Shown here: positions 2,227-33,273 of the stretch, piece by piece
How positions within the stretch are numbered: the first letter of the stretch is position 1
Layout: each line of letters starts with the position of its first letter
The notes under the pieces: model-generated
What the model was told of the DNA's origin: nothing
The model's database searches: none
Seen by the model: the letters and a program-made list of their open reading frames with translations, nothing else
NCBI RefSeq assembly: GCF_000519265.1
Contig: NZ_KI912608.1
Span: 2,823,313-2,887,312, forward strand
Length of the DNA stretch: 64,000 nt
Direction: 5' to 3'
From: Desulfonatronum lacustre DSM 10312
Lineage (GTDB): Bacteria > Desulfobacterota > Desulfovibrionia > Desulfovibrionales > Desulfonatronaceae
Position numbers and translations under genes: made by a program

Positions 2227-2574
2227 CTGGAGTTTCTCATCAAATTTTCCCGTGACAGGCAAAATTGGATCAATTGGCTTTTTGAGGCCAGGAAGCGATA
2301 CCAGCTGAAGATCCTCAACTACACCGTCACCTCGAATCATACTCACCTCTTGGTTTTCAGCGAGGAAGGCGTCACGGCCCTGCCCAGGTCAATCCAGTTG
2401 GTTGCCGGCAGAACCGCCCAGGAGTACAACCAGCGCAAAAGTCGCAAAGGTGCGTTTTGGGAAGACCGCTACCATGCCACAGCCGTGGATACGGACAAGC
2501 ATCTGCTCAAGTGCATGCCGTACATCGATCTGAACATGGTCCGGGCTGGGGTTGTGGAACATCTCCGGGAATAG
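2227..2574 (+). pseudogene. REP-associated (Y1/IS200-like) transposase remnant, 5' end missing
   Basis: The frame can be read from about 2227 to the TAG at 2572-2574. It contains SNHTHLL (the HUH metal-binding motif), AQEYNQRK (the likely nucleophile tyrosine) and the conserved tail with GAFWEDRYH and YIDLNMVRAGVV. These are hallmarks of RAYT transposases, which act on single-stranded REP-type DNA. The N-terminal 30 or so residues before the first helix are absent, replaced by the repeat ending at 2224. No start codon lies near the break; the first in-frame ATG is at 2350, after the HUH motif. It should be inactive. Confidence 0.8.
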
Positions 2575-7795: not shown

Positions 7796-7976
7796 GTAAC
7801 TACTCAGCACAGAGTAATTCTGTTGCCGGGGTCGGAATCGGAATCGGGATCGGGATCGAAAACGCTGGGATGCGTTCTAAATTCTTCCTGTTTCGATTCC
7901 GAATCCGATAGCGAAGCGCCGACCCCGACCCCGATTGCCGGAGCAAGATCGGACACAAAATGTACTGAGTAGTTAC
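7796..7976 (+). repeat. Long imperfect palindrome, element copy A
   Basis: 181 bp bounded by a perfect 12-base inverted repeat (GTAACTACTCAG at 7796-7807, CTGAGTAGTTAC at 7965-7976). Inside, hexamer-like GGAATC/GGGATC units form a left arm (7828-7858) facing a complementary right arm (7891-7938). The centre has GATCGAAAACGC and GATGCGTTC. An inverted-orientation relative is at 33117-33273. No open frame; it lies between the secreted protein gene and the MotB-like gene. Confidence 0.8.
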
Positions 7977-28512: not shown

Positions 28513-28846
28513 GAGATACCTCCAAAAGGAAAAAAGTTCGGATCAAACCGCCGTGCCGGATTCCGAGCCGATGATGTTTGGTTACGGACCTTGTCGATCC
28601 TACGTCGGTGGGCGGTTAAAGTAAATGCAGGCTGATATTTTCTATCAGGACGGATATGCTCCCGCAGCATATCTGGTCTCCAAATCGAAATCGTGATCGA
28701 AATCGAAATCGATCTTGAACAAGCATGACCCCAAGACATAGTCAAACAGCATTTTTTCGATTTCGATTGCGATTTCGATTTCGATTCGGTTGAAGCTGGC
28801 CGGTCTTGGGCAAAGGCGGGGATACGACTCAGAGCTACGGAGGGGG
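28513..28846. other. Intergenic region upstream of fba
   Basis: No gene seen. It contains two small hairpins (CTGATA/TATCAG at 28632-28648 and GATATGCT/AGCATATC at 28653-28673) and the long hexamer-based inverted repeat at 28682-28787. The fba promoter should lie here but no clear -35/-10 pair was found. Confidence 0.5.
28682..28787. repeat. Long inverted repeat of GAAATC-type hexamers (element B)
   Basis: The left arm (28682-28713) is built of AAATCG-type hexamers with one GTGATCG variant. The right arm (28756-28787) is its near-perfect complement, made of TTTCGA units with one TTGCGA variant. The loop is about 42 bases. The architecture resembles copies A and C, but the hexamers are AT-richer and the ends differ. 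Confidence 0.75.
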
Positions 28847-33116: not shown

Positions 33117-33273
33117 GTCAACTACTATGTCCGCTCTTGCTCCGACAATCGGTGTCGGGGTCGGTATCGGAGTCGGTATCGAAGCAGGAAAAAATGAGAA
33201 CGCATCCCGGCGTTTTCGATCCCGATCCCGATTCCGACCCCGACAACAGCATTACTCCGTGCCAAGTAGTTAC
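33117..33273 (-). repeat. Long imperfect palindrome, element copy C
   Basis: 157 bp homologous to 7796-7976 but inverted. Read on the minus strand it begins GTAACTACT, then GTCGGGGTCGGAATCGGGAT, GATCGAAAACGCC and GATGCGTTCTC, and returns through CCGACTCCGATACCGACCCC to GTAGTTGAC. It lies just upstream of phnD, so it may form the 5' leader or promoter region of the phn operon. Confidence 0.8.

Follow-up and report, generated by a model that had tools for sequence, protein, structure and literature searches.

Two copies of a long palindrome built of hexamers lie in opposite orientations in the 64 kb stretch of DNA analysed here (the window), which comes from a genome of 3.76 Mb in one contig (G000). 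The question that they raise is whether they are simply copies of a mobile element with an odd interior, or whether the interior is something in its own right. A sequence-only reading had placed the copies at 7796-7976 and 33117-33273, and coordinates, orientations and sequence all proved correct. The copies, here A and B, belong to a MITE family that we call F1, and the window holds one further hexamer hairpin:

7796..7976, + strand: F1 MITE copy A, complete at 181 bp, without target duplication
7796..7807, + strand: left terminal inverted repeat of copy A, GTAACTACTCAG
7829..7858, + strand: left hexamer arm of copy A, (NNRTCG)n, from the array scan
7859..7893, no strand: 35-nt loop of copy A, beginning AAAACGCTGGGATGCGTTC, of the usual F1 loop length
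7894..7935, − strand: right hexamer arm of copy A, (CGAYNN)n, broken by GCGAAGCGC
7965..7976, − strand: right terminal inverted repeat of copy A, CTGAGTAGTTAC
28682..28787, no strand: hexamer hairpin of AAATCG type, the third in the window, intergenic, terminal repeats not recognisable
33117..33273, − strand: F1 MITE copy B, in opposite orientation to A, with a decayed left end
33146..33181, + strand: hexamer arm of copy B, from the array scan
33217..33246, − strand: hexamer arm of copy B, from the array scan

The ends of copy A (GTAACTACTCAG and CTGAGTAGTTAC) form the perfect 12 bp inverted repeat that had been reported for it. In copy B the right end, AGTAGTTAC, is intact and the left end is damaged, reading GTCAACTACT with the CAGTACATTTTG segment gone; target duplications are absent at both copies. 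Folding, which had been proposed as a check, gave structures far more stable than those of shuffled sequences, with −81.7 kcal/mol for copy A as RNA (z = −7.1; z = −7.4 as DNA) and z = −7.0 for copy B as RNA. When copy A was used to query Rfam, no rRNA match was returned, and a single match, to mir-3718, fell below threshold and was judged to be due to chance. A copy at position 3193088 of the same genome is 99–100% identical to copy A over 180 bp, and such near-identity at different sites suggests that the family has been active recently. Elsewhere in the window, a 128-aa open frame contains a match to Y1 (IS200/RAYT-like) transposases, at about 2257-2529 (+), with no hexamer array nearby.

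Each search of the genome for F1 returned at least 40 strong matches. Among the loci fetched, 45 elements had both ends, of which 41 contained the hexamer core and four had other interiors. F1 elements are 149–207 bp long with 12 bp terminal inverted repeats (GTAACTACTCAG), and no transposase gene is found inside them. Genome-wide copy totals rest on similarity searches and on an 864 kb sample consisting of two 400 kb stretches and the window; extrapolation from this sample gives about 74 copies of F1. An exact 8 bp target duplication flanks 23 of 41 F1 elements, where 0.6 would be expected from shuffled flanks, and three more have a duplication with one mismatch. The match between the flanks ends at 8 bp, apart from a single case of 9 bp. 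When the flanks were joined with one duplication kept and used to query genomes of the same genus, empty sites spanning the junction were found for six loci, in G001, G004, G005 and G007:

Copy L014: empty site in G001
Copy L015: empty site in G005
Copy L019: empty site in G007 and G005
Copy L023: empty site in G007
Copy L024: empty site in G007
Copy L027: empty site in G004

At the base level, the single 8-mer is intact in G007 at the L019, L023 and L024 sites. We conclude that F1 is a MITE-type mobile element that generates an 8 bp duplication. The sequence-only reading had proposed a non-autonomous mobile element, with a search for target duplications as a check, and had set the lack of further copies in the genome and of empty sites as the finding that would refute it. 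The dozens of copies, the duplications and the empty sites in same-genus genomes bear the proposal out. Two F1 copies lie in other repeats: L006, by reading of the sequence, lies within a hairpin loop of another family, and the target of L008 (query positions 516-648) is a repeat that is abundant across the genus, with dozens of matches.

IS66 elements in genomes of the same order have the ends GTAAGCGTYCA and are flanked by exact 8 bp duplications in L156, L160 and L164, and thus resemble F1 in their GTAA ends and in the length of the duplication. The remainder of the end differs: GTAACTACTCAG and the IS66 end in L156, GTAAGCGTTCAG, are alike at 8 of 12 positions, and F1 and IS66 ends have only GTAA and TCAG in common. 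F1 also differs in that the element contains no transposase gene and its genome no match to an IS66 transposase. No match was returned when G000 was searched for an IS66 transposase, which rejects a resident IS66 as the mover of F1; IS66 copies are present in G001 and G003. The genome sequence searched contained no gene-carrying element of 0.6–4 kb with F1-type ends, and no element with F1 ends was found in viral contigs, phages and plasmids. With no IS66 in the host and no gene-carrying element with F1 ends seen, we infer the mover from the ends and the duplications: F1 was most likely mobilised by an IS66-type transposase that this genome no longer contains.

Hexamer arms are much more frequent than chance would allow, and the notation RTCGNN/CGAYNN describes their units better than GGAATC/GGGATC, the form used in the sequence-only reading. 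Genome-wide, the three-unit array ATCGNNATCGNNATCG was counted 997 times and the reversed pattern 0 times, and RTCGNN arrays of at least three units are found in the window only at the three hairpins (reversed control, 0). The 864 kb sample contains 49 forward and 46 reverse arrays, which make up approximately 40 hairpins; NNRTCG always precedes CGAYNN, with 0 cases of the opposite order. Extrapolation to the whole genome gives about 174 hairpins, the approximately 74 F1 copies among them. By a crude gene caller, which makes these figures approximate, 35 of 40 hairpins lie outside predicted genes (coding fraction 0.76–0.85), their orientation relative to neighbouring genes resembles background, and they are found between predicted protein genes and not in the 23S rRNA gene. 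The median fold z is −4.9. Variation in the arrays is limited to NN and the R/Y position, and of the units between intact neighbours 209 are intact and 12 broken. The lengths of F1 elements step by six (161, 167, 173 and 179 bp), with 21 of 41 in one class modulo 6. The NN dinucleotides of the two arms match no better than chance (70 matched, 73 expected), and pairing therefore comes from the invariant RTCG/CGAY tetramers; compensated stems were rejected, as NN does not co-vary. The stems contain 43 A.C mismatches where 51 would be expected, a small deficit. Across 348 genomes of the order, at least five four-unit arrays were found in 14 and at least ten in 11, with three or fewer elsewhere.

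The core and the shell around it proved to be separable. A second MITE family with a hexamer core has the ends CAGGGCNATTTTGTTCTC (CAGGGC...TTGTTCTC), duplications of approximately 10 bp and a 16-nt loop. Examples of its loci in the window's contig (G000:C1) are:

209322-209533: second-family element
219830-220034: second-family element
2329413-2329618: second-family element, with duplication TCGTCACACC
2516146-2516358: second-family element

Conversely, 69 bp F1 shells without the hexamer core are present in the same-genus genomes G001 and G007 (L175, 1467-1535; L177, 1013-1081), and the four elements with F1 ends but other interiors include some that are REP-like. The hexamer core is thus found in at least two MITE families that have unrelated ends and duplications of 8 bp and approximately 10 bp, respectively. 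In L179 (783-1006) and L180 (646-825 and 1017-1181), F1-type ends enclose unrelated palindromic interiors, some with the REP-like CCCGCGAAGGCGGGAATCCAG type. A possible third family, at 2174613, 2317367 and 2334749 in G000:C1, has a hexamer core between flanks that resemble GCGAATAACGCATTGCCGAAGTAGAAT.

The arms are also found around a gene. In one subfamily of four-helix-bundle (4HB) proteins (MGFGHEKLDVY...), which match PF05635/TIGR02436 (23S rRNA intervening sequence type) and PDB 2gsc, hexamer arms flank the gene, one immediately upstream of the start codon and the other at the 3′ end. Both arms are present at five of the six loci of this subfamily in the order and at none of 24 other PF05635 loci. 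Among 23 relatives of the subfamily from across phyla, at least one arm was found in 20 and both arms in 12. Wherever an intact gene has a right arm (13 of 13 genes, which are related rather than independent), translation of that arm in the frame GAY-NNC gives (Asp-X)n. Purifying selection on the protein is strong (dN/dS 0.03–0.08), and as synonymous sites are near saturation, the arms have persisted over a long divergence. In genome counts that take no account of kinship, close members (at least 58% identity) occur only in hexamer-rich genomes; the hexamer-rich G004, G012 and G009 have no close relative. Hairpin loops in G009 (L376, L377, L378 and L379) begin, by eye, with GGATATGTCATTTGG or AAAGGATATGTCATTTGG, and the GGATATGTCATTTGG start resembles a ribosome-binding site, ATG and the MxFG start of the 4HB protein, which suggests that these loops may be remnants from which the ORF has been deleted. 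The order of units in F1 arms shows no significantly greater likeness to that in 4HB arms than shuffled units do (P = 0.12–1), and this measure gives no support for descent of the former from the latter. No 4HB relatives were found on viral contigs and plasmids. By eye, 4HB genes in a Verrucomicrobia genome (L189 and L196) adjoin sequences resembling integron attC sites. The arms, singled out as unusual in the sequence-only reading, thus belong to a dispersed, genome-wide module that is common to unrelated elements and a gene subfamily.

A different account would be a plain MITE whose palindromic core grew by replication slippage, with its likeness to arrays elsewhere that of a simple repeat unit and not of a shared module. 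The lengths that step by six, the unmatched dinucleotides of the two arms and the unlike order of units in F1 and 4HB arms would all be expected, and an internal minisatellite in a MITE has a precedent in Porphyromonas gingivalis (PMC4596501). We nevertheless consider this account unlikely. It sits poorly with variation confined to NN and R/Y (209 internal units intact against 12 broken), with the fixed NNRTCG to CGAYNN orientation and its 0 reverse pairs, with the restriction of arrays at ten or more matches per genome to 11 of 348 genomes of the order, and with arrays that bracket one gene subfamily across phyla.

The very stable folds, and the 35 of 40 hairpins outside predicted genes, could also be those of stationary functional elements, namely transcription terminators or attenuators at operon edges. 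Against this, the target duplications and empty sites demonstrate that the elements inserted, and the orientation of hairpins relative to neighbouring genes is like background; we give it very little weight. Marginally less probable again is a REP/RAYT-like system in which a Y1 transposase moves the hairpins themselves. The palindromes are dispersed and intergenic, and the genome has five matches to Y1 transposases, of which one is in the window, but no hexamer array lies near that gene, no REP-like GTAG tag was noticed, and 12 bp ends with 8 bp duplications misfit single-strand transposition by Y1 enzymes. For F1, mobilisation by Y1/RAYT was rejected on account of the duplications.

The explanation that we consider probable is a MITE with a separate hexamer stem module; elements with this module have spread by means of two or more unrelated transposition systems, and the module has a coding form with the 4HB gene. 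F1 would rely for its movement on a DDE transposase acting in trans, which recognises the GTAACTACTCAG ends and makes 8 bp duplications, and its interior would be the module, with inverted arrays of RTCGNN hexamers as the stem and a short loop. Array length changes by whole hexamers, probably via replication slippage. Elements with other ends that have the hexamer core would owe their spread to at least one further, unrelated system. The coding form would have the 4HB (PF05635/TIGR02436) gene in the loop, as in 23S rRNA intervening sequences, and the F1 core is most likely an ORF-less form. Transcribed copies would produce long RNA hairpins of the kind cut by RNase III.

Parts of this arrangement have parallels in known systems. 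Bacterial MITEs are short and non-coding, with terminal inverted repeats, fixed-length duplications, many intergenic copies and stable folds (PMC10969869), and F1 is alike in all of these features; it differs in its periodic hexamer hairpin interior, which recurs in MITE families with unrelated ends. The P. gingivalis MITE resembles F1 in containing a tandem repeat, but there one minisatellite is reported in one MITE (PMC4596501), whereas the F1 core consists of two inverted arrays that form a stem and is found in several families and with a gene. In 23S rRNA intervening sequences with an S23p ORF, an inverted-repeat stem holds a four-helix-bundle gene in its loop (PMC4990558). The 4HB elements with hexamer arms share this ORF-in-loop layout, and F1 itself differs in having no PF05635-type ORF in its loop. 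The hexamer module differs further in its location outside rRNA genes, its hexamer arms, the translation of the right arm and its many ORF-less relatives. REP/BIME sequences and their RAYT or TIRYT genes (PMC3733652) likewise combine dispersed non-coding palindromes with a gene that has these palindromes on both sides, but the gene of the hexamer system encodes a four-helix-bundle protein and not a transposase, the GTAG/CGTC tag was not noticed, and F1 makes 8 bp duplications. A literature search found neither the F1 end sequence in a relevant context nor the hexamer strings, and the hexamer hairpin module seems not to have been described previously.

F1 is most likely an ordinary MITE whose interior is a hexamer-armed stem-loop module in an ORF-less form. 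As to the module's putative function, one possibility, offered tentatively, is a two-part system on the lines of REP/RAYT, made up of the hairpins and the 4HB gene. In it, the protein would bind RTCGNN stems or arrays, as DNA or RNA, and its own message would form one of these stems, whose right arm would double as the coding sequence of its acidic tail; the ORF-less hairpins would be non-autonomous members, carried along by various transposons. For the widespread PF05635/S23p-type proteins, hexamer-armed stems are a testable candidate ligand, as hundreds of matching non-coding arrays share genomes with the 4HB subfamily that is set in such a stem. A palindromic module common to MITE families with different ends bears on the origin of bacterial dispersed repeats and on why so many of them are palindromes.
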